This document shows, piece after piece, positions 10,080-30,419 of a stretch of DNA of 41,368 nt. How positions within the stretch are numbered: position 1 is the stretch's first letter; the number at the start of each line of letters is the position of its first letter. This stretch comes from Prevotella sp. Its GTDB lineage: Bacteria; Bacteroidota; Bacteroidia; Bacteroidales; Bacteroidaceae. The stretch spans positions 1 through 41,368 of the forward strand of contig JAFYDA010000027.1 of the NCBI GenBank assembly GCA_017545045.1, given 5' to 3'. The notes beneath the pieces are model-generated. The model had not been told where the DNA came from. It did not search any database and was given only the letters and a program-made list of their open reading frames with translations. The translations under genes were made by a program, and so were the position numbers.

Positions 10080-12230
10080 TTATTCCCTGATTCCGCGCAT
10101 GGAGAGCGATATGCGGTTACGTCGGCGGTCGATTTCAATCACGCGCACCCTGACGTGCTGATGAAGCTTAACCACCTGATTAGGGTCTTTTACGTATTTG
10201 TCAGCCAACTGGGAAATATGAACCAGGCCGTCTTGATGAACGCCAATATCGACAAAAGCCCCGAAGGCCGTAATGTTGGTCACGATGCCTGGCAGTTCCA
10301 TACCTTCCGTCAGGTCATCAACGGTCTCGACCCCTTTGGCAAACTCAAAAGCTTCAATCTGCTCGCGTGGGTCACGTCCTGGTTTTTCCAGCTCTTTCAT
10401 GATGTCGGTCAGCGTGGGAAGTCCCACGGTATCAGTGACGTAACGTTTGACATCAATGGAATGACGTCTTTCCTGACTATTGATGAGGTCGGTAACGGTA
10501 CAGCCGGAGTCTTTGGCCATTTGTTCCACAATAGGGTAACTCTCAGGGTGTACGGCAGAGTTGTCGAGTGGATTCCTGGCTTCTGGTATTCGCAGGAAGC
10601 CGGCACACTGCTGATAGGCAGAAGGCCCCAGACGCGGCACTTTCTTTAGTTGTGATCTGCTGGCGAAAGCACCGTTCTCACGGCGGTAGTCAACAATGTT
10701 CTTAGCCAATGTAGGACCTAATCCGCTGACATACTGCAGAAGATGCTGGGACGCGGTGTTCAGATTGACGCCAACACTATTGACACAGCTTTCTACCGTC
10801 TGGTCGAGCGAATGCTTCAGTTTTGACTGGTCTACGTCATGCTGATATTGACCTACGCCGATGCTCTTCGGGTCTATCTTTACAAGTTCTGCCAATGGAT
10901 CCATCAGCCGACGGCCAATGGATACGGCTCCGCGTACGGTCACATCTTCATCGGGGAACTCCTCGCGAGCCACTTTCGAAGCAGAATATACAGACGCCCC
11001 ATCCTCGCTGACGACAAAGACTTGTGGCGAGTGTTCCTGGCCTTTGACCGTCTCTTCAACGAAAGCTCGCGTTTCACGACTGGCGGTGCCATTACCAATG
11101 GCTATAGCCTCGATGTGATACTGCTCTATCATCTGCTGCAGGTGAACAGTTGCCTGCATGCGGTGGTTGACTGGCGGATGAGGGAAGATGGCCTCATGGT
11201 GGAGCAGGTTGCCCATCGCATCAAGGCAGACAATCTTGCAGCCAGTGCGGAATCCGGGGTCAACACCCATCACACGCTTCTGGCCTAAGGGAGCCGAAAG
11301 CAATAGTTGACGCAGGTTTTCTGCAAACACACTAATGGCCTGGTCGTCCGCCTGTTCCTTGCTAAGGTTGCTGAATTCCGTTTCGATAGATGGTTTCAGA
11401 AGACGTTTGTAACCGTCATCGACGGCCTCAGAGACAAGACGCCCACATGGTGTATGACCGTAGACATAATGACGCTTCAAACGTTCCACACACTCTTCGT
11501 CGTCAGGAGAGATGCTGATACGCAGGATGCCTTCAGCCTCGCCGCGCCGCATGGCCAACAGACGGTGACTGGAACAGCGTTTCAACGGTTCCTGCCAATC
11601 AAAATAGTCTCTGAATTTTGCCGCCTCATCGCTATCGGCCTTTGCTTTCACTACTTTTGAGGTGATGACCGCCTGACGGCGAAAGCATCCACGTACTAAC
11701 TGACGACTACGCTCATCCTCACTCACCTGTTCTGCAATGATGTCCTGAGCACCTTTAATGGCTGACGCAACGTCAGCGACATCACCAACGACAAAGGAGA
11801 GAGCAGCTTGCTCGGGGTCACGCTCTCGTTGCAACAATATGAGTTGCGCCAATGGCTCAAGCCCCTGTTCCCGAGCTATTGAGGCACGGGTGCGGCGTTT
11901 GGGACGATAGGGCAGGTAGATGTCTTCAAGTGTGGTTGACTCCCAACAGTCTTCAATGCGCTTCTGCAGTTCGGGCGTCATCTTGCCCTGCTCCGTAATC
12001 GTCTTGACGACGGTTTCCTTGCGCTTGGCTATCTCCTGTAACTGTTCCAGACGGTTGCTAATGGCCGTAATCTGTACCTCGTCCAGTCCACCCGTCCGCT
12101 CCTTGCGGTAACGTGATATAAACGGAATGGTGCAACCCTCGTCCAACAGTTTCAACGTGTTCTCCACCGCATGCTCCTGCAAGTGCAGTTCCGTGCTGAT
12201 AAGTTTCGTGAATATCTTGATATTTTCCAT
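10080..12230 (-). CDS. tex: Tex family RNA-binding transcription accessory protein
   Basis: Cytoplasmic nucleic-acid-binding protein of the Tex/Spt6-like family. The Tex N-terminal helical region carries IPFISRYRKERTGGLDE. A YqgF/RNase H-like fold follows with GVDPGFRTGCKIV at about residue 320, then helix-hairpin-helix segments (for example LLQYVSGLGPTLAKNIV), and a C-terminal S1 domain starting near LPGIVTNITAFGAFVDIG. The length of 716 residues is normal for the family. It is 16 bases downstream of a 57-residue ORF with no promoter box in the gap, so the nearest -7 box is the one at 12529-12536 ahead of a toxin-like remnant. GH27 follows closely downstream. Confidence 0.96.
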   Translation of the reverse strand: MENIKIFTKLISTELHLQEHAVENTLKLLDEGCTIPFISRYRKERTGGLDEVQITAISNRLEQLQEIAKRKETVVKTITEQGKMTPELQKRIEDCWESTTLEDIYLPYRPKRRTRASIAREQGLEPLAQLILLQRERDPEQAALSFVVGDVADVASAIKGAQDIIAEQVSEDERSRQLVRGCFRRQAVITSKVVKAKADSDEAAKFRDYFDWQEPLKRCSSHRLLAMRRGEAEGILRISISPDDEECVERLKRHYVYGHTPCGRLVSEAVDDGYKRLLKPSIETEFSNLSKEQADDQAISVFAENLRQLLLSAPLGQKRVMGVDPGFRTGCKIVCLDAMGNLLHHEAIFPHPPVNHRMQATVHLQQMIEQYHIEAIAIGNGTASRETRAFVEETVKGQEHSPQVFVVSEDGASVYSASKVAREEFPDEDVTVRGAVSIGRRLMDPLAELVKIDPKSIGVGQYQHDVDQSKLKHSLDQTVESCVNSVGVNLNTASQHLLQYVSGLGPTLAKNIVDYRRENGAFASRSQLKKVPRLGPSAYQQCAGFLRIPEARNPLDNSAVHPESYPIVEQMAKDSGCTVTDLINSQERRHSIDVKRYVTDTVGLPTLTDIMKELEKPGRDPREQIEAFEFAKGVETVDDLTEGMELPGIVTNITAFGAFVDIGVHQDGLVHISQLADKYVKDPNQVVKLHQHVRVRVIEIDRRRNRISLSMRGIRE

Positions 12231-15102: not shown

Positions 15103-17142
15103 ATGAAAACAAAGAATTTATTAATGATTGGAATGGTGACTGCCATGAGCCTTAATGCATGGGCAGACGAACCCTTGAAGTCGGGACTCAACCGTGCCGA
15201 CATGAACACCAGTGTCAAGGCTGGCGACGATTTCTATGAATACGCATGCGGAGGCTGGATGAAAGCCAATCCCCTGCCTGCAGCCTACTCACGCTTCGGT
15301 TCATTCGACCGTCTGGCCGAGGACAACAACAAGCGCATCAACGCCATTTTAAAGGAGCTGCAGTCGAACACCTACACTCAGGGAACGATTGAGCAGAAAC
15401 TGTCCGATTTCTACAAGCTGGCCATGGACTCTGCCCGCCGTGAGCAGGAGGGCGTAGCACCCGTGATGCCAATCATCAAGCGCTTAGAGGCAGCCAAGAC
15501 CATTCAGCAGCTGTTTGACATCCAGCTTGAAATGGCCAAATATGGCGATTCCGAGTTCTATCGTGCAGGTATGGGAGCCGACGAGAAGAACGCCACGCAG
15601 AACATCCTGAACGTTGCGCAGGGCGGACTGACGCTTGGCCAAAAGGACTACTATCTGGAAAACGACGAAGCTACCGTGAAGATCCGCGAGGCCTACAAGC
15701 AGCACATCGTCCGCATGTTCCAGCTCTTCGGCTTCAGCAAGGGAGCTGCCACGAAGAAAATGCAGAACGTCTTCAAGCTTGAGCTGGCACTGGCCAAGGT
15801 TTCGAAGAGCCGCACCGAACTGCGTGACCCGCAGGCCAATTATAACAAGATGACCCTGAAGGAGTTCAACACCCGCTACCCCAACCTCAAGCTGGAGCAG
15901 GTGATGAACGCTCAGGGACTCAAGAGCCAGTTCATGCAGGAGCTTGTTGTCGGACAGCCTCAGTTCATGGAGGGTGCCGATGCCATGATAGCCAAGATGA
16001 AGCCCGCCGAGTATCGCGACTACATGGAATGGGGCGTCATCAGCAGCGCCGCCAGCGTCCTGAACGATGCCGTACGGCTTGAAAGCTTCGACTTCTTCGG
16101 CAAGACCATGAGTGGCCGCAAGGAGGAGCATCCTCTCTGGCGCCGTGCCACCAACCAGGTACAGGGAGCCATGGGCCAGGCCCTGGGCCGCATTTACGTC
16201 AACAAGTATTTCCCCGCTACTGCCAAAGAGCGCATGGTGAAACTGGTCAAGAACCTGCAAATAGCCCTCGGTGAGCGCATTGCCGCTCAGGACTGGATGG
16301 ATGACTCCACTAAGGTGAACGCCCTGTTGAAGCTCAACACCTTCTACGTGAAGGTGGGTTATCCTGACAAGTGGATAGACATGACCAAGCTCCAGATTGA
16401 CCCCACCAAGTCGCTCTTCGACAACCAGCTGGCCGTTCTGAAATTCTGGAACGACTACTCCATTGAGCACACCGCCGGCAAGCCCGTCGACATTGACGAC
16501 TGGTACATGACACCACAGACGGTCAACGCCTACTACAACCCCACGACCAACGAAATCTGCTTCCCAGCAGGCATTCTGCAAGTTCCCTTCTTCGACATGA
16601 CGGCCGACGATGCTTTCAATTATGGTGCCATCGGTGTGGTCATCGGTCATGAGATGACGCACGGTTTCGACGACCAGGGACGACAGTTCGACAAGGACGG
16701 CAACATGCACGACTGGTGGAAAGAGAGCGACGGCAAGAACTTCACTGAACGCACAGACAAATATGCCGACTTCTTCTCGGCCATCAAGGTGCTGCCCGAC
16801 CTCAATGCCAACGGCCGTCTGACGCTGGGTGAGAACCTGGCTGACCACGGCGGTCTGCAGGTAGCATACGCCGCTTACAAGAACGCCACCAAGAATAATC
16901 CGCTGCCCGTCATCGACGGTTTCACCGCCGACCAGCGCTTCTTCTTAGCCTACGCAGGCGTATGGGCAGGCAACATGACTGAGGAGGCTATCCGTCAACA
17001 AACCAAGAGCGACCCCCATTCACTTGGCCGCTGGCGCGTCAACGGCGCACTGCCTCACATTGATGCCTGGTATGAGGCATTCGGCATCAAAGAAGGAGAC
17101 AAAATGTATATTCCTCAATCGCAGCGTCTCCAGCTGTGGTAA
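15103..17142 (+). CDS. pepO: M13 family zinc metallopeptidase (PepO/neprilysin-like)
   Basis: An exported oligopeptidase. A 21-residue signal peptide (MKTKNLLMIGMVTAMSLNAWA) is followed by the M13 N-terminal helical lobe (opening SGLNRADMNTSVKAGDDFYEYACGGW) and the C-terminal catalytic lobe. Zinc ligands are H516 and H520 in HEMTH and E577 in ENLAD, with catalytic E517. NAYYNPTTNEICFPAGILQ is the usual substrate-binding stretch. The length of 679 residues is typical. It is 8 bases downstream of the ABC-F gene and probably co-transcribed. Such enzymes cleave peptides up to about 40 residues in the periplasm. A lipid anchor is not seen. Confidence 0.95.
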   Translation: MKTKNLLMIGMVTAMSLNAWADEPLKSGLNRADMNTSVKAGDDFYEYACGGWMKANPLPAAYSRFGSFDRLAEDNNKRINAILKELQSNTYTQGTIEQKLSDFYKLAMDSARREQEGVAPVMPIIKRLEAAKTIQQLFDIQLEMAKYGDSEFYRAGMGADEKNATQNILNVAQGGLTLGQKDYYLENDEATVKIREAYKQHIVRMFQLFGFSKGAATKKMQNVFKLELALAKVSKSRTELRDPQANYNKMTLKEFNTRYPNLKLEQVMNAQGLKSQFMQELVVGQPQFMEGADAMIAKMKPAEYRDYMEWGVISSAASVLNDAVRLESFDFFGKTMSGRKEEHPLWRRATNQVQGAMGQALGRIYVNKYFPATAKERMVKLVKNLQIALGERIAAQDWMDDSTKVNALLKLNTFYVKVGYPDKWIDMTKLQIDPTKSLFDNQLAVLKFWNDYSIEHTAGKPVDIDDWYMTPQTVNAYYNPTTNEICFPAGILQVPFFDMTADDAFNYGAIGVVIGHEMTHGFDDQGRQFDKDGNMHDWWKESDGKNFTERTDKYADFFSAIKVLPDLNANGRLTLGENLADHGGLQVAYAAYKNATKNNPLPVIDGFTADQRFFLAYAGVWAGNMTEEAIRQQTKSDPHSLGRWRVNGALPHIDAWYEAFGIKEGDKMYIPQSQRLQLW

Positions 17143-17186
17143 ATTGCTTTTGCACCTGTCGTTTTTAAAAAAAAATTAGTTTTTTG

Positions 17187-17216
17187 TTGTAATAAAAAAA
17201 AAATTTTATAACTTTG
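17187..17216 (+). promoter_or_regulatory. Promoter of the signalling cluster (TTG-N19-TAACTTTG)
   Basis: The -7 box TAACTTTG at 17209-17216 has a TTG at 17187-17189, 19 bases upstream, in an A/T-rich tract. Transcription would start near 17223, about 18 bases before the first ATG. No other convincing promoter was seen in the short junctions of the cluster, so this is the probable single promoter for 17241-25765 and perhaps beyond. Confidence 0.65.
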
Positions 17217-17240: not shown

Positions 17241-18179
17241 ATGATTGAAGATAACACCATCAGGCCAGGACAGGTGGATTCAGGTCAAATGAGCATGCAA
17301 CGCGAAGGACTGTGGAGAACCAACAGACCAGAGGAAAGGCTTGATTATCAGCAGCTTCAACAACAAGTGCAGGGTGTAATGTGCCCAAATTGTGGTACCG
17401 TAAACGATGCAGAGTCCATGTTCTGCGCATCGTGTGGAAGTCCATTGCGCATGGGGAGTTGCCCCAACTGTGGCAGTGAAATTGATCCTGAGGCTGACTT
17501 TTGTGAAGTATGCCATAAATACATCAAGAAGAATGTCTGTTCTTTCTGCGGGGCACAGATGAGCGAGAGCGAAGTTTACTGCCATGAGTGTGGTAATCCA
17601 CGTGGAGGCATCGTCTGCCCCATGTGCAATACGCTTAACGACTTCTCTTTCTGCAAGCAGTGCGGAACACCATTGACGCAAGAAGCCAAAATGCTGGTAG
17701 CCGACATGAAAAAAAGGCCAGACTATCAGATGTTGGTAGAAGCGGCACGTGAGCTGGAGGATCTGGAAATCCAGATTCCTTATTCATCAGAACGTGACGT
17801 TGTCAGGGATCAGATGAATGACAAGCTGCGTGAAAGAGTGCTGATGCTATTGGCAAAAGACAAAGGAGTTCAAAATCCGACAATACCCTCAAAAAATACA
17901 CGGAAAATATCACAAGAAGAGCTGACAAAGCGTAAGGATGAGAAAATACAGCTGCTGACAGAGCTTTTGGAAAAAATGGCTGTGCCAGCACAGCCGTCGC
18001 CTGCAAAGGTGCGCAACTACGCTATGGCTCAGAAACCGGCAGGGGTGAGATTAGCCTGGGTTTGCAACTGGAAGCAAGCCATGCACTCCAGTCCATGCGG
18101 ATGTGCCAAGCCCCAATTAGGAGGGAAATGGATTATCTTAGGTAAAAATAGTAAGGACGAGATAAAAGACGACAAGTAA
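17241..18179 (+). CDS. Protein with four consecutive zinc ribbons, first gene of the kinase/AAA/phosphatase cluster
   Basis: A soluble 312-residue protein of unknown function. After a polar N-terminus come four CxxC-x(8-10)-CxxC zinc ribbons: C48/C51/C62/C65, C74/C77/C88/C91, C100/C103/C114/C117 and C126/C129/C138/C141. A charged helical region (about 145-250) follows, then an unrecognised C-terminal segment with WVCNWKQAM and PCGCAKP that could bind a further metal. No catalytic motif is visible. Zinc-ribbon arrays usually mediate protein or nucleic-acid binding. The kinase gene starts immediately after its stop codon (taa then atg), so translation is probably coupled. An adaptor or scaffold role in the cluster is inference. 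Confidence 0.85.
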   Translation: MIEDNTIRPGQVDSGQMSMQREGLWRTNRPEERLDYQQLQQQVQGVMCPNCGTVNDAESMFCASCGSPLRMGSCPNCGSEIDPEADFCEVCHKYIKKNVCSFCGAQMSESEVYCHECGNPRGGIVCPMCNTLNDFSFCKQCGTPLTQEAKMLVADMKKRPDYQMLVEAARELEDLEIQIPYSSERDVVRDQMNDKLRERVLMLLAKDKGVQNPTIPSKNTRKISQEELTKRKDEKIQLLTELLEKMAVPAQPSPAKVRNYAMAQKPAGVRLAWVCNWKQAMHSSPCGCAKPQLGGKWIILGKNSKDEIKDDK

Positions 18180-21137
18180 ATGACTACCAACAGAACGAAT
18201 AACAATCCTATAGAGGATGGCAAAACGATGGCTGTTGTAGGCGGCGCGACCGTCCGCACTATGAGGGGTGTAGAGCAGACAGAATCACCTACTGCGAGTG
18301 ACGTTTTCATACTGCAAGGTCGTAACTACAAAAACATCAAGTGCCTAAGCGACAGTTCTGGAGAGGCACAGGTGTTCCTTGTTGAGGATGAAGAGGGGCA
18401 GCAGCGTGTGCTGAAAGTCTATTACCCAAATTTCGATGTCAATAAAAAGCTGTTACAGACCATCCGCTCGTTCGATTTTGAGATGATTGTCAAGTTGTAC
18501 GAGTTTGGAAAGACCTATGTCGAAGGCAAGCATCGCAACTATGAACTGATGGAATATCTGCGTGGAGGCACACTGAGTCAATATAAGCTGGAAGGTAACC
18601 TGAACCAATTCCGCCGCATTGCTCTCCAATCCGCCGCCGCATTGGCCTACTGCCATAACAAGAACATTCTCCATAAGGACATTAAACCATCGAACTTCTT
18701 CTTTCGTGACGAGGCTCATGAAGAGGTGGTATTAGCTGATTTTGGCATCTCATCAATGATGGAAGATGATGGAAAGGCGCACCGCACGACACAGGCCAGA
18801 ACACCTATCTATGCAGCGCCGGAAATGTACACAGATGTCATTGATGGCGTCGTAGAACTGACGGCTGCAGCAGACTTCTACTCTTTGGGAATGACACTGT
18901 TCGCCCTGTGGCTGGGTGAGAACCCGATGAGTACCAATGAGCGCGTGATGATGCGCCAGAAAAACGAAGGACGACTACCACGACTGAACGAATTACCCGA
19001 CAATGTGAAGCACATTGTACAAGGCCTGACGGCTGTGAACGCCATGAGCCGATGGGGATATGACGAGGTAGAGAAATGGTTCCAGGGTGAGGATGTGCCT
19101 GTTGACATTAGCTCACCATTCCTGAGGTACAAAAACTTTATCGTTGATCCTGAGCGCAACCTTATTGCCGATAATGTCCATGAACTCATTCCGTTATTGG
19201 TAGATAACGAACAATTGGCAAAAGGCTATCTGTACAACGGTCGCATCTGCCAGTGGCTTGAATCGTGTGGAAACATGAAATTAGCCACTGTTGTGAAAGA
19301 TATTGTGGTAAACCGTTATCCTGTCGATCAGCATGCAGGCTTAATGGCTGCCGTTTATGCCATGGAGCCCACCTATCCTTATAAGGATGCAGGTGGTAAC
19401 CTGTGTGACGATATTCATAGCGTGGCCATATCATTGCTGACCTATCAGGACCAGTATTCCGTCATGCTGAAGAATCCCAACGATTCACTGTTCTTGTATC
19501 TCGAATCACACTCAAAGTGTGACGTCGGACGATTACGTTCTTATTTTAATGATGACGACGGTCGCAAGAAAATCGATTATCGTGTGTCTACATTGCGTAC
19601 CGTTTACGAGATAGACAAAGAAATACCCTTCCTTGCAAAATATCCTTCTGGCAATATCGAGCAGATAGTCCACGCTTTTGGGTATGAGCAAATGTCGGAG
19701 GACGACTGGCATAGTCTGACAGACGGGCGGTTACTGTCGTGGATGTTTAGCCATGAAGACGTCATGGCGTGTGAAAGTCTGCGCATTATGACCAAGGAAC
19801 AGCCCTATTCAGAATCACTGGCCTACAAAGTTCTCTACAATATTGACCGTCATGCAGCATACGACCTGCGCAATGCGGACACACCAGAAAAAGTGGGAAG
19901 GCTGCTGGCCGAGCGGCTGAAGAACGCAGAACACCTGAATGACGAGGATTTTGCCCACGAAATGAGTGACATTATAGAGAAAGACGGTCGACTTTCCTAC
20001 TTTGCACAGTTACATGGCTGGATAGAATTACAAGCAGAGGCAACCCGTATCTTCGATATGGAATCAGAGGAGAACCGCGAGCGTCTGGGTGCCTACGACA
20101 TGAAAACGGCAGTCTATAGATTTTGCTGTACATTAGGTGTCACACCTTCCTATCTGCTGCCCGACGGTTATGAACTGACGGACGGCCTGAATCTGAATCA
20201 TTCGCTGAGCTCTCAGATGCGTAATGAAATGCGGAAGGGTAATTTCACACAATGGCTGTCTGTTTTCTACCATGAGAACCCGTCTAATGATTTCGCAGAG
20301 GAATACTCTTACGAGCGCGAGTTAGAGAAATGGCTAATGGCTCTTGGCGAGATTGACATGTCCAACCAGTTTTACAAGCGCTTTGTAGAAGCCCGTGAAA
20401 CGACACTCCAAAAAATGGCCAGTGTGAGAAAGGGATGGAAGAATGCAAAGCGCAAGGAGCAGACATGGAGATTCCTGTTCTACGGGCTATGTGGAATATG
20501 GGTATTGTTAGTGCTTATATTCGGTGTTACCGGGCGCGACTTCATGCTGCGTCATTCGGCAGTAACCATCGGTCTCCCCGTGGGCGGCATGTCAGCTGCT
20601 ATAGTAGCTACACGTGCCTATTTCCGCGGATATGGTTTTGTACTCTCGTTACTATGGGGGGTGCTGGGAGCTCTTTCGTCAATGATTCCTATTACGATGC
20701 TGAAGTATCTTAATGCATCGCATCCATCCTTATTTAATATAGGTATTGTCGTCATAACTGCCATCTACATGTTGATTTGCCATTTGACAGACTTCCGTGG
20801 AGACCAAAAAGCAGACAACAAATTAGTAAACGAAGTATTAGGTGACGATGTTCAATCAACATTGTTAGAACCTCTTTACTATACATTCAAGACCAAGTCC
20901 TTCAAGTTCAAAGGGTCAAAGTTTGGCCTGTTGGACGATGTGACCGAAGAAGTTCGCTCTGTATCTGGCGAGTCTGTACTCCACTATATGTTCTGGTGCG
21001 TGATGATTGCCGCACTGGTGGCAGAGTTCGTGGTGTTCAGTCCAAGTCTGATGAATGTGCGCAACCCCAATCTTGACGGCAAGTGGAAATTGCAGCCCCA
21101 TAAAGTGATTAAACAAATAGAAAAGGATATAGAATGA
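18180..21137 (+). CDS. Membrane-anchored Ser/Thr protein kinase with large unknown middle region
   Basis: A Hanks-type kinase domain spans about residues 45-310. It has a degenerate glycine loop near G61, the ATP lysine K79 (RVLKVYY), catalytic loop HKDIKPSN with D167, DFG at D187 and AAPEMY. The essential residues are present, so it is probably active. Lysine replaces arginine before D167 (a non-RD kinase), which may mean activity does not need activation-loop phosphorylation. The Thr-rich N-terminus (T25, T28, T35, T38) offers possible autophosphorylation sites. Residues about 320-760 are helical and not recognised. About 763-880 form roughly four membrane segments, with one more near 950. 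The start abuts the upstream stop, and the stop overlaps the AAA gene start (atga). Confidence 0.9.
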   Translation: MTTNRTNNNPIEDGKTMAVVGGATVRTMRGVEQTESPTASDVFILQGRNYKNIKCLSDSSGEAQVFLVEDEEGQQRVLKVYYPNFDVNKKLLQTIRSFDFEMIVKLYEFGKTYVEGKHRNYELMEYLRGGTLSQYKLEGNLNQFRRIALQSAAALAYCHNKNILHKDIKPSNFFFRDEAHEEVVLADFGISSMMEDDGKAHRTTQARTPIYAAPEMYTDVIDGVVELTAAADFYSLGMTLFALWLGENPMSTNERVMMRQKNEGRLPRLNELPDNVKHIVQGLTAVNAMSRWGYDEVEKWFQGEDVPVDISSPFLRYKNFIVDPERNLIADNVHELIPLLVDNEQLAKGYLYNGRICQWLESCGNMKLATVVKDIVVNRYPVDQHAGLMAAVYAMEPTYPYKDAGGNLCDDIHSVAISLLTYQDQYSVMLKNPNDSLFLYLESHSKCDVGRLRSYFNDDDGRKKIDYRVSTLRTVYEIDKEIPFLAKYPSGNIEQIVHAFGYEQMSEDDWHSLTDGRLLSWMFSHEDVMACESLRIMTKEQPYSESLAYKVLYNIDRHAAYDLRNADTPEKVGRLLAERLKNAEHLNDEDFAHEMSDIIEKDGRLSYFAQLHGWIELQAEATRIFDMESEENRERLGAYDMKTAVYRFCCTLGVTPSYLLPDGYELTDGLNLNHSLSSQMRNEMRKGNFTQWLSVFYHENPSNDFAEEYSYERELEKWLMALGEIDMSNQFYKRFVEARETTLQKMASVRKGWKNAKRKEQTWRFLFYGLCGIWVLLVLIFGVTGRDFMLRHSAVTIGLPVGGMSAAIVATRAYFRGYGFVLSLLWGVLGALSSMIPITMLKYLNASHPSLFNIGIVVITAIYMLICHLTDFRGDQKADNKLVNEVLGDDVQSTLLEPLYYTFKTKSFKFKGSKFGLLDDVTEEVRSVSGESVLHYMFWCVMIAALVAEFVVFSPSLMNVRNPNLDGKWKLQPHKVIKQIEKDIE

Positions 21138-24100
21138 TTTGTGAGCACTGTCATAAGGAAAACCGAAGCATAGCGAAGTTCTGCCGGTGGTGCGGCAAAC
21201 CACTGGTGAGTCTGAACGTACTCGATAAGTTGGTGGGCCTTGACGAGGTAAAGGCACAACTGAAAACGATTGTCGATACATATACATTCCTGCATTCCCG
21301 CAAGGATATTGCCAATGTACGCCTATCAGTAAATGCAATAATAATAGGTGAAACAGGAACAGGAAAGACCGCACTGGCAGAAATTATCCGTGACTATTTC
21401 TATCAGCATAAGATTATTGAGAAGCCCAAGCTTACTATGGTCGATGCCGTGGACTACAGTCGTTTTGTAGACAAGTGGGACGACAATATAAAAAAGGCAA
21501 AGGAGGGTATTCTATTCTTCGATAATGTGCAGAAGCTGTTGCCTGACAAGTATTCCAATCAGGTGAACCCTCTCGACAAATTGTTCGTGGAAATGGATAA
21601 GTGGGACGATAATCCCATTGTTATCATGGCTGGACTTCCTAAGGGTCTTGATGACTTCCTGGAGAGTAATCCTGCAGTGAAAAATCGCTTCAAGTACATG
21701 TTCAGGCTCCCGACACCTGGTTTCCAAGAATTATGCGATATTGCAAAGATGGAGCTGAAGACGAAATATGGTATTTCCACGTTCTCGCCAGAAGCAGACC
21801 ATCAGTTGTCCCGCTATTTCAAATACCAGATTAAAATAAAAGACGAGACCTTCGGCAATGCCCATCTGGCCTTGAAGACAGCCGAAGATATATTTACGTC
21901 GTTCATTAGCCGTGGCGCCAATGCGGAACAGGTGGAGCGCGACGATATTCAGGGTTACGTCCCCGAGGAGCGCACACTTGAAGACATTCTACATGACCTT
22001 GACAACTTCATCGGCATGGATGGTGTGAAGCAGGCTGTACGGGAGATAGCCTATTCGGTGCAGAACAGTGTTCAACGTGCTGAAAGAGGATTGGGCGAGC
22101 AGGAGAAGATGTCTATGCACATTATTCTCACCGGTAACCCTGGCACGGGTAAAACCACTATTGCCAGAAAGTTGGGTGAAATACTGGCTGCAATAGGCTA
22201 TTTGGATAGTGGTCATGTAGTGGAGGTTGATCGTGCAAAGATGGTAAGTCCATATCAAGGCGAAACGCCAAAGATAGTGGATCGTCTCTGCGACAAGGCT
22301 ATGGGCGGCATCTTATTTGTAGACGAAGCTTACACATTGGCACCATTGAGTCAAGCTGGAGAGCGCGACAATCAGGGAGCACAGGCTTTAGAGAAACTTA
22401 TGAAGCGAATGGAAGATGACCGTGGTAAATTCGTGGTCATCGCAGCCGGCTATCGCATGGAGATGGATAATCTCTTCCGCGTTAATCCTGGCTTTAAGAG
22501 CCGCTTCAACTACTTCCTCAATATTGACGACTACTCGCCTGACGAACTTTACCAGATAATGCTTGTATTCGCCAAGGCAAAGAAATATCTGATGTCTCCG
22601 GAGGCAGAAGAAAAGGCTAAGGAGTGTATCAACACGATGTATAAGTCGCGTGACAAGGATTTTGCCAACGGCCGTACCATGCGTTCGCTCTTCGATGAGA
22701 TTTGCAAGAAGCAGGCACAACGTTTGCAGAACGGCGACATGTCGGCATTGAGCAACGAACAACTAATGACTATAGAGCCGGTCGACATTCCGTTCGAGTC
22801 ACCTAAGGCTGTTGACTATAACGAGTGTCTCAAGAAACTTAACGGTATGGTGGGACTGGCTGCCGTCAAGAAGGAAATCAGTAACCTTGCAGCCTTCCTG
22901 AATCTTCAGATAAGACGTGGAGAAACCAATACCTTCCAAGGCAAGCACTACGTATTCACAGGTAATCCAGGAACAGGTAAGACCACAGTGGCACGCATCA
23001 TGGCCGATGTGTTTAAGACTCTCGGTATTCTGTCACGCGGTCAGCTCGTAGAGGCAGACCGTGCAAAACTCGTGGCAGGCTATAGTGGTCAGACAGCTAT
23101 CAAGACTAATCAGCTGATAGACTCTGCCTTGGGCGGAGTATTATTCATTGACGAGGCATATACGCTGAAATCCAACGATAGTGATTCCTTCGGGGCTGAG
23201 GCTATAGATACGTTGTTGAAGCGATTAGAGGACGACCGTGGCAAGTTCATCTGCATCGTAGCCGGATATACCGACCAGATGCACGATTTCATTGACACCA
23301 ATCCTGGACTGAAGAGCCGCTTTACGCAGACCATCCACTTCGACGACTATTCTCCTGATGAACTGACGCAGATTTTTGAGAATCTGGCAGCCGCCAAAAA
23401 CTTCACGATTAGTGATGACACTAAAGCGGCCATTCACCGTCAGTTTGAACAGCTATACCTACGACGTGACAAGAATTTCGGAAATGCGCGTGAAGCCCGC
23501 AAAGTATTTGACGCAGCAATCGAGAAGCAGAGCCAGCGACTGGTGAACTTCATGAACGATCCCGGATTTAAGGAGGATGACATGTATCGCATCACCATCG
23601 ACGACCTGCCGATGGCTCAGAATGAGAAAGCTCGTCCGTTGGATGAGGTTCTTAATGAACTTGATGACTTCATCGGCATGCGCTCTGTGAAGAACAGCAT
23701 TCGCCGTCTTGCCGTACAGAGTATGTTCATGAAGCAACGTGCCTCCATGGGTGCGGGCAATGTCCAGCAATTGGCCATGAACTTTGTGCTGACAGGTAAT
23801 CCTGGTACGGGTAAGACATCGATAGCCCGGAAGATGGGTGAAATTCTAAATTCTATGGATATTCTGCCCACCAGCCGTGTGTTAGAGACAAGCCGTGCAT
23901 CCCTTGTTGGCAAATACATGGGAGAGACACCGAAGATTGTCAATAACATGTGTGACAAAGCCATGGGCGGCGTTCTGTTTATTGACGAGGCCTACACACT
24001 GAGTGACCAAAACGACCAGTACGGCAAGGAGGCTATCGACACGTTGATGAAACGTATGGAGGACGACCGCGGCAAATTCGTGGTGATAGCTGCCGGTTAT

Positions 24101-24451
24101 AAAGACAAGATGGAGGAATTCATGCAGATGAATCCTGGACTTGCCAGCCGTTTCACACACAAGCTGCATATCGATGACTATAACGAAGACGAGTTGCTGG
24201 CCATCTTCAAGAAAATGGCCCAGAAGGAACAATACACCTTGTCTCCCACAGCAGAGTTCAAAGCGCTTGATGTCATTTTCAAGATGGTGATGAGCAAGAA
24301 TTCCAACTTTGGCAATGCCCGCGAAATGCGCAATCTGCTTGACCAGACTATCCAGCAGCTCTCTATGCGTGTATCTCAAATGCCACCCGACCAAGTGACA
24401 AAGGAGACATATCAGATTATTTTACCAGAAGATATTTTAGATAAAGCATGA
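21134..24451 (+). CDS. Zinc ribbon plus four tandem CbbX/SpoVK-like AAA+ modules
   Basis: A 1105-residue AAA+ protein. A zinc ribbon (C3/C6/C17/C20) leads into four AAA+ modules. Module 1 (about 30-260) has Walker A GETGTGKT with K78, but its Walker B ends in D130-N131 instead of D-E, so it probably binds ATP without normal hydrolysis. Modules 2, 3 and 4 have GNPGTGKT with K340, K616 and K894, and Walker B D397-E398, D673-E674 and D951-E952. Each of these three carries a pore-loop-like YxGxT motif (YQGET, YSGQT, YMGET). The modules match the CbbX/CfxQ/SpoVK branch, whose members remodel protein complexes. Both ends overlap neighbouring genes by atga, implying fixed stoichiometry. The client is unknown. 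Confidence 0.93.
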   Translation: MICEHCHKENRSIAKFCRWCGKPLVSLNVLDKLVGLDEVKAQLKTIVDTYTFLHSRKDIANVRLSVNAIIIGETGTGKTALAEIIRDYFYQHKIIEKPKLTMVDAVDYSRFVDKWDDNIKKAKEGILFFDNVQKLLPDKYSNQVNPLDKLFVEMDKWDDNPIVIMAGLPKGLDDFLESNPAVKNRFKYMFRLPTPGFQELCDIAKMELKTKYGISTFSPEADHQLSRYFKYQIKIKDETFGNAHLALKTAEDIFTSFISRGANAEQVERDDIQGYVPEERTLEDILHDLDNFIGMDGVKQAVREIAYSVQNSVQRAERGLGEQEKMSMHIILTGNPGTGKTTIARKLGEILAAIGYLDSGHVVEVDRAKMVSPYQGETPKIVDRLCDKAMGGILFVDEAYTLAPLSQAGERDNQGAQALEKLMKRMEDDRGKFVVIAAGYRMEMDNLFRVNPGFKSRFNYFLNIDDYSPDELYQIMLVFAKAKKYLMSPEAEEKAKECINTMYKSRDKDFANGRTMRSLFDEICKKQAQRLQNGDMSALSNEQLMTIEPVDIPFESPKAVDYNECLKKLNGMVGLAAVKKEISNLAAFLNLQIRRGETNTFQGKHYVFTGNPGTGKTTVARIMADVFKTLGILSRGQLVEADRAKLVAGYSGQTAIKTNQLIDSALGGVLFIDEAYTLKSNDSDSFGAEAIDTLLKRLEDDRGKFICIVAGYTDQMHDFIDTNPGLKSRFTQTIHFDDYSPDELTQIFENLAAAKNFTISDDTKAAIHRQFEQLYLRRDKNFGNAREARKVFDAAIEKQSQRLVNFMNDPGFKEDDMYRITIDDLPMAQNEKARPLDEVLNELDDFIGMRSVKNSIRRLAVQSMFMKQRASMGAGNVQQLAMNFVLTGNPGTGKTSIARKMGEILNSMDILPTSRVLETSRASLVGKYMGETPKIVNNMCDKAMGGVLFIDEAYTLSDQNDQYGKEAIDTLMKRMEDDRGKFVVIAAGYKDKMEEFMQMNPGLASRFTHKLHIDDYNEDELLAIFKKMAQKEQYTLSPTAEFKALDVIFKMVMSKNSNFGNAREMRNLLDQTIQQLSMRVSQMPPDQVTKETYQIILPEDILDKA

Positions 24452-25005
24452 TTATTTGTCCCAGTTGTAAAGAACAGATAGAAGACAATAGCTACTACTG
24501 TGACCAGTGTGGTCAGGCTTTGCTGTACTGCGACCGCTGTGGGCGTGTTGGTATTGGACGTCGCTGTACTCAGTGCGGTGGCTTAATGGTTCCTGCTGAA
24601 GGGTCCAAGAACGGTGCCGTATCATCGGTTGACCCCGTCTCTCAGACAGCTTCTTCCCGTGCTTTTGCAGGACAGCCAGGTTCCGTGTCTTTGGCATCGC
24701 AGGGCGTTCCCACATTGTTGCTCTATAACACAAGCCTTGACATCCGTATTCAGGGTATCAATGGTGCTGTTATAGGTCGTCGCCAAGGGCCGTATGCCCA
24801 ACAGTTTGAGGGAAACATGTATATATCGGGCGTCCATGCCCAGTTGAAATACAGTGCTTACTCAGGGTGGTGTATTATTGATAAGCATTCGTCAAATGGC
24901 ACAAAACTCAATCAACATCCTATACAACCCGATGTGGAGATGTCACTCAAGAATGGTGACATTGTGGCGCTTGCAAACATCAATCTTCAAGTTATTATCA
25001 ATTAA
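24448..25005 (+). CDS. Zinc-ribbon FHA-domain phosphothreonine reader
   Basis: A 185-residue soluble adaptor. Two zinc ribbons (C4/C7/C18/C21 and C28/C31/C40/C43) are followed by a Ser/Ala-rich linker and an FHA domain (about 88-185). The pThr-binding residues are present: R111 in IGRR, S127 and H130 in ISGVHAQ, and N150-G151 in HSSNGTKLN. FHA domains bind phosphothreonine, so its likely ligand is a target of the neighbouring kinase, or the kinase itself. It overlaps the AAA gene by four bases and is 13 bases from the PP2C gene. The shared zinc ribbons with the AAA and first proteins suggest they assemble together (inference). Confidence 0.92.
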   Translation: MIICPSCKEQIEDNSYYCDQCGQALLYCDRCGRVGIGRRCTQCGGLMVPAEGSKNGAVSSVDPVSQTASSRAFAGQPGSVSLASQGVPTLLLYNTSLDIRIQGINGAVIGRRQGPYAQQFEGNMYISGVHAQLKYSAYSGWCIIDKHSSNGTKLNQHPIQPDVEMSLKNGDIVALANINLQVIIN

Positions 25006-25018
25006 ATAGTCAAAACCA

Positions 25019-25765
25019 GTGAAATTCTGTATCAAGGCAGCCAGCTACGTAGGCTGTATTCGTGAAAGAAACGAGGATATGGTGCTGGTAGGTCAGCAGT
25101 TCGTTCGTGATGATGACTACGCCGAGATTGATGACCTTAATGCCAAAAGTCGTCTTATTGTAGCTCTGGCTGACGGTATGGGTGGACATAAAGGAGGCGA
25201 GGTAGCAAGCAGCGATGTCCTTCATAATCTGGCCTATTATTATGGCGATATGCCTACGGGGCTTAGTGTGCAAGGCTTCATGGAAGCCATTCAAGAATGG
25301 CTTAAATCCATCAACAACATCATCGACTCTAAAGGACGTTCTGAACCCTGTTATTATAACATGGGGACAACCCTTGTTGGCTTTGCTTACTATGAGGGTG
25401 AATTCTTCTGGATGAACTGTGGCGACAGTCGTCTTTATCAGCTTCGTAAAGGAGAATTACGCCAGTTGTCGACAGACCATTCCCTAAATAGTCTCACGGG
25501 AGAAGCCGGTCATTCCAATATCATAGTCAATTGTATAGGCGGCGGCTGCAAAGCGTCATATATAGATATTATGAAATGCACGGAGTCTGTTCATGTCGGT
25601 GACATCTTCATGTTGTGCAGTGATGGATTATCAGATATGGTCACTGATCATCATATACTCGAAATGCTTATGAATGGGGCTGATGCTAACGCATTATGTC
25701 AAGCCGCCATTATTAACGGTGGCATTGATAATGTATCAGTTTGTGTAATAAAAATAGAAGAATAA
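25019..25765 (+). CDS. PP2C-family Ser/Thr protein phosphatase
   Basis: A stand-alone PPM/PP2C phosphatase of 248 residues. The metal-binding and catalytic motifs are intact: RERNED (D20), LADGMGGH (D52), MNCGDSRLYQL, CSDGLSD (D202) and GIDNVSV (D237). It should remove phosphate from Ser/Thr residues using Mn/Mg and is the natural antagonist of the kinase encoded two genes upstream. Translation most likely starts at GTG 25019, since the conserved N-terminal strand begins right there and no in-frame ATG precedes it. It follows the FHA gene by 13 bases and precedes metA by 12. Confidence 0.94.
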   Translation: MKFCIKAASYVGCIRERNEDMVLVGQQFVRDDDYAEIDDLNAKSRLIVALADGMGGHKGGEVASSDVLHNLAYYYGDMPTGLSVQGFMEAIQEWLKSINNIIDSKGRSEPCYYNMGTTLVGFAYYEGEFFWMNCGDSRLYQLRKGELRQLSTDHSLNSLTGEAGHSNIIVNCIGGGCKASYIDIMKCTESVHVGDIFMLCSDGLSDMVTDHHILEMLMNGADANALCQAAIINGGIDNVSVCVIKIEE

Positions 25766-25777
25766 CATTCATTCACT

Positions 25778-26695
25778 ATGCCATTAAGGTTACCAGATAG
25801 ATTGCCTGCCATTGACTTACTCAAGCAGGAGAATATTTTTGTCATGGGTGACAAGCGCGCCCACGAGCAGGACATTCGTCCCTTGCGCATAGTTATCCTC
25901 AACTTGATGCCGCTGAAGATTACGACAGAAACAGATCTTATCAGGTTACTTTCGAATACGCCATTACAGCTCGACATCAATTTTATGAAGCTGAAAAGCC
26001 ACACGCCAAAGAACACTCCAATAGAGCACATGATGATGTTCTATCGCGATTTTGAGTCGATGCGTAATGAGAAGTTCGACGGAATGATCATTACAGGGGC
26101 TCCCGTTGAACAGTTGGAGTTCGAGGATGTCTTCTACTGGGACGAGATTACGCAAATCTTCGAATGGGCACGAACACACGTGACGAGTACCTTATATATA
26201 TGTTGGGCTGCACAAGCAGGTCTTTACTATCATTATGGTGTACCCAAGTATTCGCTTGACAAGAAGATGTTTGGCATTTTCCCACAGAGAATGCTTGAAC
26301 CGCTATTACCCATCTTCCGAGGTTTTGACGATGAGTTCCAGATGCCTCACAGTCGTCATACAGAACTTCATCGTGAGGATATTATTTCAAATCCGGAACT
26401 GACGCTGATTGCCGAGTCTGAAGATAGCGGAGTAAGCATTGTGATGGCTCGGAATGGCCGTGAGTTCTTTATTACGGGACATTTAGAATACTCCCCTGAC
26501 ACGCTTGACAAGGAATATCGCCGTGACAAGGACATTCGGGATGATGTGGATTTGCCACGCAACTACTATCTGAACGACGATCCTCAGCAAGGGCCTCATG
26601 TTACCTGGCGGGCTCACGCTAATCTGTTCTATTCCAACTGGATTAACTATTACGTTTATCAAGAGACGCCTTATAACATAGAGGAAATCAAGTGA
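25778..26695 (+). CDS. metA: Homoserine O-acyltransferase, predicted acetyl-CoA type
   Basis: First committed step of methionine synthesis: acylation of homoserine in the cytoplasm. The 305-residue protein aligns along E. coli MetA, with catalytic C142 (ICWAAQAG) and H235/E237 (TGHLEYSP) at the same numbers. Residue 111 is Glu (TGAPVE), where succinyl-specific E. coli MetA has Gly. In characterised homologues Glu at 111 goes with acetyl-CoA use, so this is probably a homoserine O-acetyltransferase in spite of the usual succinyl annotation. It sits 12 bases after the PP2C gene and overlaps the next gene by gtga. No riboswitch was seen in the short upstream gap. Confidence 0.95.
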   Translation: MPLRLPDRLPAIDLLKQENIFVMGDKRAHEQDIRPLRIVILNLMPLKITTETDLIRLLSNTPLQLDINFMKLKSHTPKNTPIEHMMMFYRDFESMRNEKFDGMIITGAPVEQLEFEDVFYWDEITQIFEWARTHVTSTLYICWAAQAGLYYHYGVPKYSLDKKMFGIFPQRMLEPLLPIFRGFDDEFQMPHSRHTELHREDIISNPELTLIAESEDSGVSIVMARNGREFFITGHLEYSPDTLDKEYRRDKDIRDDVDLPRNYYLNDDPQQGPHVTWRAHANLFYSNWINYYVYQETPYNIEEIK

Positions 26696-28512
26696 TAAAG
26701 TCGTTAGAGCTTTTGGCGCCGGCTAAGAATCTGGAGTGTGGCATAGCCGCCATTGATCATGGCGCTGATGCCGTTTACATTGGTGCCCAGCGCTTTGGTG
26801 CGCGGGCTTCAGCGGGCAACTCGATTGAGGATATAGCCCGCTTGTGTAATTACGCGCATCAGTATCAGGCAAAGGTCTACGTCACCGTCAATACCATTAT
26901 CTTTGATGATGAATTAGAAGCTACTCGCGAGTTGCTCAGTGAACTACAGCAAATAGGCGTTGACGCCGTTCTGGTCCAGGATCTCTCAATCCTCTCTTTT
27001 CACTCTCCCCTCCCCTCTTCTTTCAGTTTTTCCCTTCCTCTCCATGCTTCTACACAAACAGACAACCGCACGGCAGCCAAAGTGCGATGGTTATACGATA
27101 TCGGTTTCAGTCGCGTTGTTTTAGCCCGCGAGTTGTCTATTGACGAGATAAGAGCCATTCATGATGCCGTGCCCGATGTTGAGCTGGAAGTCTTTGTCCA
27201 CGGTGCCCTCTGTGTCAGCTATAGTGGTTTATGCTATGTGTCGCAGCATTGTTTTCAACGGTCGGCCAACCGCGGCGAGTGTGCCCAATTCTGCCGGATG
27301 CGTTTTGACCTTGTTGATGCCAATGGCCAAGTGATAGAGCACGACCGCCATTTGTTGTCACTTAAGGATATGTGCCAAATAGACAACCTTGAGGCACTGG
27401 CCGATGCTGGCGCTACCTCATTCAAGATTGAAGGCCGTCTGAAGGATGTTGCATACGTCAAGAATGTCACAGCTGCTTATAGCGAACGGCTCAATCAGCT
27501 TGTGCGTTGCCATCCCGACCGTTACAGGCGTGCTTCCCAGGGCCGTTGTCAGTATACGTTCACACCCAATTTACAAAAAACGTTCAACCGCGGCTATACC
27601 ACCTATTTCGCCAACGGTCGCCAGTCCTCCATTGCCTCGTTTGATACGCCCAAAGCCATGGGCGAGTTCGTAGGTACGGTTAAGGAATTGAGCGGCAACT
27701 CATTCACTGTGACAGGCACGGCCAGCTTTGCCAATGGTGATGGCCTCTGCTTTATCAACAAGAACCGCCAGTTAGAAGGTTTCCGCGTGAACAGGGCAGA
27801 CGGGAATCGCCTCTTTCCGCAACGGATGCCCATTGGACTTCATCCAGGCCAGAAACTCTATCGTAACAGTAATCAGGAGTTTGACCGTCTGCTTTCCAAG
27901 CCCAGTGCAGAACGCAAAATACCCATCACGATGACGTTGCAAGCTGTGGCCGACGGTTTCTGCTTGTCGGCAGAAGGTGTCACCGTCAGCATCCAGCATC
28001 CTCATCAGACGGCCGAGAAGCCTCAGCACGACACCATCGTGCGCCAACTTACCAAATTGGGAAACACACCGTATATTTGCACGAAGGTAGATATTCCTGT
28101 AGACTTTAACTATTTCATACCCAATAGTTTGATTGCAGAGTTGCGTCGGCTGTTGATACAGGCGCTGCAGTCATCACCATTACCCCACCCGGAGTCTCGT
28201 CCTGTGGCCTGCCTGCCGCCAACATTCCATTATGCCCAGCCCCACCTCTATAATATCAGTAACCGTCTCTCTTGCGATTTTTACGGCGTCAGCACACCTA
28301 CGGCCTATGAACTGCGTTCCACGCCCGAAGCTGCACTCATGCAGTGTCGCCACTGTCTACGCTATTCGTTAGGCTACTGTGTACGTCATGGTGGTCAACA
28401 CCCCACGTTTCGTGAACCGCTTTTCCTCAGGTTGGGCGACGGCCGCCGTTTCCGGTTAGAGTTCGACTGTAGTCACTGTCAAATGAACATTTATTCAACG
28501 CATCATTCATAA
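26692..28512 (+). CDS. Peptidase U32-family protein (RlhA/TrhP-like RNA hydroxylation factor)
   Basis: A 606-residue U32 family protein. The barrel opens LELLAPAKNLECGIAAIDHGADAVYIG. The U32 signature includes EVFVHGALCVSYSGLCYVS and continues RSANRGECAQFCR, and the C-terminal region has Cys pairs (MQCRHCLRYSLGYC, DCSHCQMN). Members annotated as collagenase-like peptidases include E. coli RlhA and TrhP, which act in rRNA/tRNA cytidine or uridine hydroxylation. The size is nearer to RlhA. GTG at 26692 overlaps the metA stop (gtga). A pyrimidine-rich in-frame segment (about 26982-27041, encoding SFHSPLPSSFSFSLP) lies between VQDLSIL and LHASTQTDN, where relatives have a shorter linker. Confidence 0.9.
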   Translation: MIKSLELLAPAKNLECGIAAIDHGADAVYIGAQRFGARASAGNSIEDIARLCNYAHQYQAKVYVTVNTIIFDDELEATRELLSELQQIGVDAVLVQDLSILSFHSPLPSSFSFSLPLHASTQTDNRTAAKVRWLYDIGFSRVVLARELSIDEIRAIHDAVPDVELEVFVHGALCVSYSGLCYVSQHCFQRSANRGECAQFCRMRFDLVDANGQVIEHDRHLLSLKDMCQIDNLEALADAGATSFKIEGRLKDVAYVKNVTAAYSERLNQLVRCHPDRYRRASQGRCQYTFTPNLQKTFNRGYTTYFANGRQSSIASFDTPKAMGEFVGTVKELSGNSFTVTGTASFANGDGLCFINKNRQLEGFRVNRADGNRLFPQRMPIGLHPGQKLYRNSNQEFDRLLSKPSAERKIPITMTLQAVADGFCLSAEGVTVSIQHPHQTAEKPQHDTIVRQLTKLGNTPYICTKVDIPVDFNYFIPNSLIAELRRLLIQALQSSPLPHPESRPVACLPPTFHYAQPHLYNISNRLSCDFYGVSTPTAYELRSTPEAALMQCRHCLRYSLGYCVRHGGQHPTFREPLFLRLGDGRRFRLEFDCSHCQMNIYSTHHS

Positions 28513-29588: not shown

Positions 29589-30419
29589 TTATAGTCCACG
29601 GGCTTTCCAGATACGTTCCTTGGCCGCGTTAATCTCCTGGAATTTCTTCTCGGCAGCCCGACGTACATCATCGCCGAGGGCCGACACTTTGTCCGGATGA
29701 TGTTCAAGTGCTAACTTACGATAAGCCTTTTTAACTTCGTCATCTGTAGCCGTAGGACTGACGCCCAGCACCTTATAGGCTGACTCCAAATCGTCGTGAC
29801 CCAGGTTGAGCATGGAGTCAACCTCAGCAGTCGACATGCCAAGCCACTGTGCACAATCCTTCAGCGCGACAACTTCTGCAGGATCGATGCGGCCGTCGGC
29901 CTGAGCTATCATGACAAGGAAGTTAAGCAGCTGAAGCCGTTGCGAGTAATCCATATTGCTATTTATCTGCTGACAGCAATCCTTGACGGTGCGGCGAAAA
30001 CCGTTCCAACCTTGCTTCTTCTGCTCACCGAAGAGCTTGTTCAGTATGTCATTGCCTTGATCAACAGCTGCATCGCCGAAATTCTGGCGTAGCATCTGGC
30101 GCACCAATTCCATTTCGGAATGCATGGCCCTGCCGTCAGCCTTGATAATGTAGGACGCCAACACAAGCAAAGAGAAAAGAAAACTGTTACGGTTACCCTG
30201 TGCCTGTTGGCGTTGATAAGCCTGACGATACACCTCTTCGTAGGCACGGAATCCACTGGCACGGCTTGAATCCGTGCCGAACGTTCCTGAATTCTCCGGA
30301 GTGTTGACAAAGTTGAGCCCCTGCTCAAAGAGCGAACCTAACAAATACCCTGCCAGAGCGCCCAGAGGCCCTCCTGCCATCCATCCTATGATGCCACCAA
30401 TCCATTTGCCCGCAGCCAT
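29589..30419 (-). CDS. DjlA-like co-chaperone: TerB region plus J domain
   Basis: A 276-residue protein. A Gly/Ala-rich N-terminal segment (about 5-35, [23 protein letters not shown]) could insert in or lie on the membrane. The middle is a TerB-like helical domain with two acidic metal-site-like motifs (IKADGR at about 92, [11 protein letters not shown] at about 172). The C-terminal J domain (about 212-276) has HPD at 241-243, needed to stimulate DnaK ATPase. This is the DjlA arrangement, so it probably recruits DnaK to the membrane. It lies 31 bases downstream of asnA on the minus strand and may share its transcript. Confidence 0.88.

Follow-up and report, generated by a model that had tools for sequence, protein, structure and literature searches.

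A conserved kinase, FHA, PP2C and AAA+ gene cassette of Prevotella that may encode a phosphorylation-assembled chaperone at the membrane

What might a bacterium do with a membrane kinase, a phosphothreonine (pThr) reader, a phosphatase, a chain of AAA+ modules and a set of zinc ribbons that are encoded side by side? This question is raised by a stretch of 41,368 nucleotides from Prevotella sp., a member of the Bacteroidota (GCA_017545045.1, contig JAFYDA010000027.1, positions 1-41,368 of the forward strand; hereafter the window), in which five open reading frames (ORFs) lie next to each other on the + strand at 17241-25765, in the order ZR4, KIN, AAA, FHA and PP2C (Table 1). An initial annotation, made from the letters alone, had read them as a phospho-gated protein-remodelling complex. 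We propose, with slightly more belief than doubt, that their products form a single AAA+ chaperone, anchored in the membrane and assembled by phosphorylation.

All five ORFs and the domains initially assigned to them were recovered with Pfam, which assigned double zinc ribbons to ZR4, Pkinase to KIN, four AAA stretches and three AAA_lid_6 domains to AAA, FHA to the fourth protein (whose double ribbon scored slightly below the cut-off, 26.1 vs 27.3 bits) and PP2C to the fifth. The junctions were likewise as described: the ZR4 stop abuts the KIN start, KIN and AAA as well as AAA and FHA meet at an ATGA, and 13 bases separate FHA from PP2C. We then compared families of sequences that include those of the window (91 ZR4, 92 KIN, 96 AAA, 95 FHA and 89 PP2C). 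The writer, the reader and the eraser (KIN, FHA and PP2C) all retain their active-site or binding-site residues, in keeping with the roles initially given to them. The ATP-binding Lys, the HxD Asp and the DFG Asp of KIN are present in 90/92 sequences, the other two being incomplete (L041 split, L013 cut); one of the 90, from the diverged locus L137, has DYD, lacks APE and is pseudokinase-like. The pThr-binding R and S of FHA are kept in 95/95 sequences and the N in 94. The metal-binding Asp of PP2C is found in 89/89 and its N-terminal pair in 88/89, where the odd sequence (L124) was probably shortened by the chosen start. The split KIN, at L041:7024-9986, consists of two ORFs (366 and 620 amino acids) in one metagenome-assembled genome, reflecting either a sequencing error or a recent break.

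The first line of evidence for a single machine is inheritance. Among the best 80 of 207 loci encoding an AAA relative, the full set of five was found in 76, which is beyond chance; three of the remaining four (L013, L015, L025) lie on contigs that begin within KIN. The same near all-or-none pattern was found across 151 genomes of the family, which we profiled for four of the proteins: ZR4 (E <= 1e-10), KIN (E <= 1e-40), AAA (E <= 1e-100, a threshold chosen after viewing the match list) and FHA (matched along most of the protein) were each detected in 12 genomes, and these were the same 12. Four further FHA matches in the family (G013, G061, G062, G080) are partial, with E values from 7e-8 to 9e-5; AAA matches of 3e-84 or weaker occur in 15 additional genomes. 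AAA was present in 20/60 genomes of the genus and, at E <= 1e-100, in 17/395 of the phylum. Seven of the phylum genomes (G000, G005, G216, G220, G266, G366, G411) matched from the N-terminal ribbon onward, and among six such ribbon-type loci inspected we found the five-gene order in L131, L122, L123, L124 and L125, and AAA-FHA-PP2C at a contig edge in G216 (L126). The order is thus kept outside the class, beside other neighbours. Within the family it also occurs in L132, L134, L135, L136, L139 and L168, and without PP2C in L133 and L138 (for L131 and L132 the order was taken from gene numbering). The initial annotation had proposed a search for conserved co-occurrence in Bacteroidota and named routinely scattered homologues as a refutation; this check did not refute it, and a single inherited unit is supported.

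AAA matches of another type, at four places (L127-L130), had no ZR4, KIN, FHA or PP2C by tblastn; they represent a separate multi-module AAA type of about 1300 amino acids in the same phylum (G411, G366, G520 and G338, respectively), with no partners nearby. Plasmid searches returned 31 records matching AAA, one covering at least 80% of the query and all below 60% identity, and none matching ZR4. In PHROGs we found mostly generic domain matches, and none for FHA.

In Prevotella a single site, flanked by an M13 peptidase gene and metA, either carries the cassette or lacks it. Cassette loci have M13 upstream, and metA and a U32 peptidase-family gene downstream, wherever the contig extends that far; no M13 match was found in L014, L017, L018, L023, L027 and L073. 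When 20 cassette-lacking genomes, picked for completeness, were followed up to 1.5 kb beyond M13, metA came next in 9, U32 in 2 and neither in 9. Distance matrices over 67 loci gave mutual correlations of 0.69-0.87 among the five proteins, compared with 0.46-0.59 with metA and 0.56-0.73 with M13.

Patchy presence at one fixed site, which other genomes show without the cassette, is compatible with a conflict or anti-phage module, in which the kinase would sense infection and the AAA+ chain would act as the effector or its activator. Several further observations point the same way. In PADLOC the top match of KIN, among the best 25 of 34, is to the MADS kinase mad6 and is confined to the kinase region (5.6e-38); AAA matches TRIP13 and IetA among the best 25 of its 36 matches. 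A kinase-kinase-phosphatase defence module is known, according to the available part of PMC11341870. In two genomes outside the class, SUKH (SMI1/KNR4) genes lie inside the cassette, between ZR4 and KIN (L122:3304-4083), or directly after it (L125:10445-10966), and possibly encode an immunity-type or adaptor protein. However, PADLOC returned no match for ZR4, FHA or PP2C, and those listed for KIN and AAA span one domain. The likeness of KIN to MAD6 and to other defence kinases lies in the kinase domain, whereas its score against the NCBIfam model is 82.9 bits for a cut-off of 460, and of the other MADS components we detected none except a weak generic AAA match to mad8. Moreover, the Prevotella site lies between housekeeping genes, the transcript is probably shared with metA, the cassette distances correlate with those of the flanking M13, and AAA evolves as slowly as metA (protein distance 0.165 vs 0.163), its partners being twice as fast (0.35-0.40). 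We therefore consider a defence role unlikely.

The second line of evidence, and the one that suggests how the machine could be assembled, is the threonine motif D-x-T-[IVLM]-R-P, which clusters in the tails at the N-termini of KIN and ZR4. Ahead of its kinase domain, KIN has a tail that is highly variable in sequence yet carries repeats of T-[IVLM]-R; in the window these fall at T24 (18249) and T27 (18258), and ZR4 has D-N-T-I-R-P at residue 6. The strict motif T[IVML]R occurred 208 times in 82 KIN tails compared with 8.7 in shuffles, with at least one copy in 78 tails. That count leaves eight KIN proteins without a parsed tail, seven of which enter a larger set of 89 tails (89/92 KIN, without L013, L041 and L137). 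In the 89 tails, Arg stands at +2 of 299/746 threonines (40%) and of 8/663 serines (1.2%), Arg making up 5.8% of residues, whereas outside the tail T-x-R and S-x-R reach 3.1% and 3.8%. The result held in 46 non-redundant tails, where we counted T-x-R in 145/393 against S-x-R in 2/323, the strict motif in 40/46 tails, and 104 strict motifs, a number that never exceeded 14 in any of 1000 shuffles. Of 221 motifs (88 KIN tails), 101 have D at -2 and 91 have P at +3. The N-terminal tails of ZR4 behave alike (T-x-R 101/274 vs S-x-R 7/168; strict motif 30 vs 4.1). The motif is not in excess in FHA, PP2C or the remainder of KIN and ZR4, and AAA has 108 vs 85. Because the sequences are kin, the shuffle tests overstate independence; the comparison with Ser, made on the same tails, is less affected.

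FHA domains are specific pThr recognition units, as the available part of PMC3953482 describes, so a motif that shuns Ser fits a pThr-specific FHA reader, and such exclusion is what selection by the co-encoded FHA protein would be expected to produce. The motif on the cassette proteins, which by sequence is Thr-specific and strongly enriched, is thus a plausible link between writer and reader. Tandem growth of the tail motif was seen in single lineages, as DGTIRP, DGTMRP or DMTMRP repeats in L075, L032 and L042 and as D-[KR]-T-I-V in L039.

The seven zinc ribbons that the initial annotation had counted in three proteins are there by sequence (four, one and two in ZR4, AAA and FHA), and a possible eighth metal site had been missed. 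ZR4 has eight CxxC motifs in 85/91 sequences and six in the remaining 6; the N-terminal ribbon of AAA is found in 95/95 (one partial sequence left out); and in FHA the first ribbon is present in 95/95 and a complete second in 90/95. In addition, all 91/91 ZR4 sequences, that of the window included, end in a Cys/His module with the pattern W-x-C-N...H...C-A-x-P-x-x-G-G-x-W (residues 258-301, window 18012-18143), which in some distant ZR4 has C-x-x-C ahead of the His. It is possible that this module forms a small zinc site, the eighth metal site of the cassette.

The motor of the proposed machine is AAA. Its whole-protein scores are 794 bits for TIGR02881 (cut-off 423), 721 for TIGR03922 (467) and 657 for TIGR02880 (459), these being sums over the four modules of the chain. 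EccA1 (9lur) and CbbX (3zuh, 3syk) were the only sequences of solved structures matching it at E <= 1e-20. In modules 2-4 of the window protein we found Walker A, Walker B with its Glu, a GY sensor-1 and a pore-loop-like Tyr-x-G-[EQ]-T motif. The GY sensor-1 is a signature of the CbbX/SpoVK/EccA clade (PMC10659427, in the part available), and on the strength of both the profile match and this signature the sequence is assigned to that clade. In module 1 Walker A is kept, Asn replaces the Walker B Glu and there is no GY sensor-1, suggesting that this module is probably unable to hydrolyse ATP. Over the four modules the Walker B series N-E-E-E is seen in 86/96 AAA sequences (a set that contains that of the window and two that are partial or diverged) and three Tyr-x-G-[EQ]-T motifs in 88/96. 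Of the claim of four AAA+ modules, the number is right for the window, but the first probably does not hydrolyse ATP and relatives have 3 to 6. The cassette AAA resembles CbbX, SpoVK and EccA in TIGR profiles, AAA_lid_6 and the GY sensor-1 of modules 2-4, and differs from them in having 3 to 6 modules behind a zinc ribbon, an Asn in module 1 and the company of a kinase, FHA and ZR4.

The characterised clade members are each narrow, with one target: CbbX acts on Rubisco, EccA on substrates of the type VII secretion system (T7SS) and SpoVK on MurG, in the account given by the available part of PMC10659427. A client among cell-envelope synthetic enzymes, making the cassette a phospho-gated counterpart of SpoVK-MurG control, could be considered, since SpoVK is an activator of MurG and the same text (PMC10659427) notes that EccA1 plays a part in the production of mycolic acid. 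Membrane segments in KIN (four hydropathic segments in the window, four to six in relatives) and the many invariant columns that follow its kinase domain (34 sequences) would also suit this idea. Yet it argues by analogy, the neighbourhoods listed show no consistent envelope gene and their flanks differ between families, and it would be a special case of the chaperone that we propose; as a specific claim we think it quite unlikely.

Taken in order, the steps of the proposed phosphorylation-assembled chaperone would be as follows. KIN would be anchored in the inner membrane through its C-terminal segments, and would phosphorylate itself and ZR4 on the threonines of the tail motifs. The FHA protein would bind the tail phosphothreonines, several motif copies per tail providing avidity, and the zinc ribbons common to ZR4, AAA and FHA would dock the AAA+ chain at the membrane through contacts with one another. 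Modules 2-4, by hydrolysing ATP, would then act as the remodelling motor for a dedicated client, module 1 serving as an ATP-binding regulatory module, until PP2C strips the phosphates and the assembly dissolves. A close precedent exists in the type VI secretion system (T6SS): once PpkA has phosphorylated Thr 14 of TssL, Fha binds TssL, which then alters the state of the TssM ATPase (PMC3953482, available part).

Several observations weigh against this chaperone model. Nucleic acid, and not protein, could be what the ribbons bind. The motif could mirror the preference of the kinase alone: it may simply be the kinase's own substrate preference displayed in an exposed tail, with FHA reading other proteins of the cell. 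A kinase consensus by itself can raise the share of T-x-R close to the active site of that kinase, the strict T[IVML]R is missing from 6/89 KIN tails, one tail (L039, 6819-7200) repeats D-[KR]-T-I-V nine times, with Val instead of Arg at +2, next to one strict motif, and L137 has retained an FHA protein even though its KIN is pseudokinase-like and it has no PP2C. On the other hand, the near exclusion of Ser is a better fit to a pThr-specific reader than to a Ser/Thr kinase, and the L137 tail also lacks the strict motif. Nor did the motif clearly exceed chance elsewhere in the genome. When 16 genomes were searched with a DNA pattern for D-x-T-I-R-P, a narrow pattern (Ile and Pro only) that gave 0 to 9 matches per genome with the cassette's own included, eight cassette-bearing genomes had 27 matches against 18 for reversed-pattern controls, and eight cassette-lacking genomes 18 against 23. 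This lack of a clear excess speaks against a general kinase preference, and at the same time it means that the motif singles out no client outside the cassette. Kinase preference alone is to us an unlikely explanation. An ORF scan of the cassette loci for at least two motifs, as a route to a client, had one match, on the opposite strand of ZR4 in L075, which is most likely due to chance.

Two further points count against the proposed chaperone. PP2C is missing between FHA and metA in L013 and L073, and, in a tblastn recheck restricted to the locus, beside the cassette in L013, L073, L133, L138 and the diverged L137; because of these five loci, the reset arm need not have its PP2C encoded in cis. 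In the distance matrices, the correlation of ZR4 with M13 (0.73) exceeds that of FHA with PP2C (0.69), and the range within the cassette overlaps that with M13. The initial reading of a phospho-gated remodelling complex is thus partly supported: it gains from the inherited unit, the intact residues and the Thr motif, and is weakened by the absence of PP2C beside four cassettes (L013, L073, L133, L138).

A second, diverged paralogous cassette was observed in G576 (L137:2495-11116). It contains an extra AAA protein, a three-ribbon ZR4-like protein, the pseudokinase-like KIN and an FHA gene at 10589-11116, and no PP2C. Its KIN has HGDVKLSN and DYD, without APE, activation segment or strict tail motif, and is a single case: used as a query against 241 genomes, it gave two matches, both to KIN of canonical cassettes. 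Its AAA has two intact Walker A motifs, and in its FHA a His replaces the Asn.

Could the cassette instead be a Thr-phosphorylation switch, uncoupled in the genome from the secretion system that it controls? The combination of kinase, FHA and PP2C is the post-translational switch of the T6SS (PMC3953482, in the available part), newer T7SS types have a membrane kinase, a PPM phosphatase and FHA proteins (PMC11217815, likewise), and the clade of AAA includes the T7SS protein EccA. The T6SS pathway (PpkA, Fha, PppA), whose target is an ATPase complex of the membrane, resembles the cassette in having a membrane Ser/Thr kinase, an FHA reader and a PP2C eraser. Unlike it, the cassette has no secretion genes among its five proteins and ten neighbours, and it adds ribbons, a CbbX/SpoVK-type AAA+ chain and a proposed docking motif on the kinase and the ribbon protein. 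TssC (PF17541, one family) did not track with the cassette, being detected in 2/16 cassette-bearing and 5/17 cassette-lacking genomes, in a search that matched none of 14 control genomes. Similarly, T7SSc-e place a membrane kinase with a PPM phosphatase and/or FHA in one cluster (PMC11217815, available part), whereas WXG100 (PF06013) was found in 0/33 of our genomes (2/14 controls matched, one above the cut-off), and no FtsK/EccC-type ATPase occurs among the five proteins and ten neighbours. We regard control of a remote T6SS or T7SS-like system as very improbable, which agrees with the initial remark that no structural secretion genes are present; the cassette is not an obvious T6SS switch.

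The GAP1-N2 GTPase systems also recall the cassette, with a kinase bearing a ribbon and a PP2C next door; in the available part of PMC7159879, this kinase/ribbon/PP2C/vWA theme is restricted to actinobacteria. We found no GTPase or vWA in the cassette, which has FHA and the AAA+ chain instead.

The expression of the five genes was also considered. Upstream of ZR4 lies TAACTTTG, which we take to be the -7 box of a probable Bacteroidota-type promoter, and the pattern TAnnTTTG occurs in the gap between M13 and ZR4 in 68/70 loci compared with 8 in shuffles. A sigma-70 consensus scan (18 vs 14.3 in shuffles) and a terminator scan (6 vs 7.5) were uninformative, and Rfam gave 0 matches. PP2C and metA are 12 bases apart in the window and at most 50 apart in 74/76 loci, and metA overlaps the U32 gene in the window; owing to the short spacing and this overlap, the transcription unit very likely runs on past PP2C, and metA and the U32 gene are probably on the same transcript. 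The unit with one promoter that was initially described thus probably does not end at PP2C. A TerB-DnaJ gene lies near the cassette (29592-30419, - strand), and it had no match in any of the 80 related loci.

Table 1. Positions in the window of the cassette genes, their probable promoter and the flanking genes
Feature	Position	Strand	Description
ZR4	17241..18179	+	four zinc ribbons, middle region, Cys/His module conserved at the C-terminus; TIR motif (residue 6, 17256)
KIN	18180..21137	+	tail with Thr motifs, Ser/Thr kinase domain, about 450 further residues; 4 hydropathic segments in residues 765-958
AAA	21134..24451	+	N-terminal ribbon and four CbbX/SpoVK/EccA-like AAA+ modules
FHA	24448..25005	+	double zinc ribbon, then FHA domain with pThr-binding residues R111, S127, N150
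PP2C	25019..25765	+	metal-dependent Ser/Thr phosphatase, metal-binding Asp kept; GTG start
Probable Bacteroidota-type promoter	17183..17216	+	TTTG/TTG, then TAACTTTG at 17209-17216
metA (homoserine O-succinyltransferase family)	25778..26695	+	outside the machine, probably on the same transcript
U32 peptidase-family gene	26692..28512	+	overlaps metA; downstream flank with and without the cassette
M13 peptidase	15103..17142	+	upstream flank of the cassette site

We found no description of this cassette in the open PMC literature. Figure 3A of PMC10659427, which shows operons of the SpoVK-EccA clade with a zinc-binding domain label, may draw such an operon, though the main text of that article mentions no FHA, kinase or phosphatase. 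A kinase/FHA/PP2C switch and a CbbX/SpoVK/EccA chaperone are each already known; here they are inherited jointly, in a cassette that adds a putative ribbon scaffold and lacks secretion genes. We tentatively hypothesise, rating the idea somewhat below an even chance, that this is a stand-alone machine, found in several families of one phylum and independent of secretion systems, in which an AAA+ chain is assembled at the membrane by pThr docking motifs arrayed in tandem on the kinase of the same cassette, with the ribbon/FHA adaptor as their reader; the number of motifs (0 to 7 per tail) would set the avidity and the number of modules (3 to 6) the motor. If the proposed chaperone is real, Prevotella of the rumen and gut would possess a phosphorylation-gated remodelling machine with a predicted docking code, and a clade of narrow AAA+ chaperones would gain a version under direct, reversible control, offering a path to a new client.

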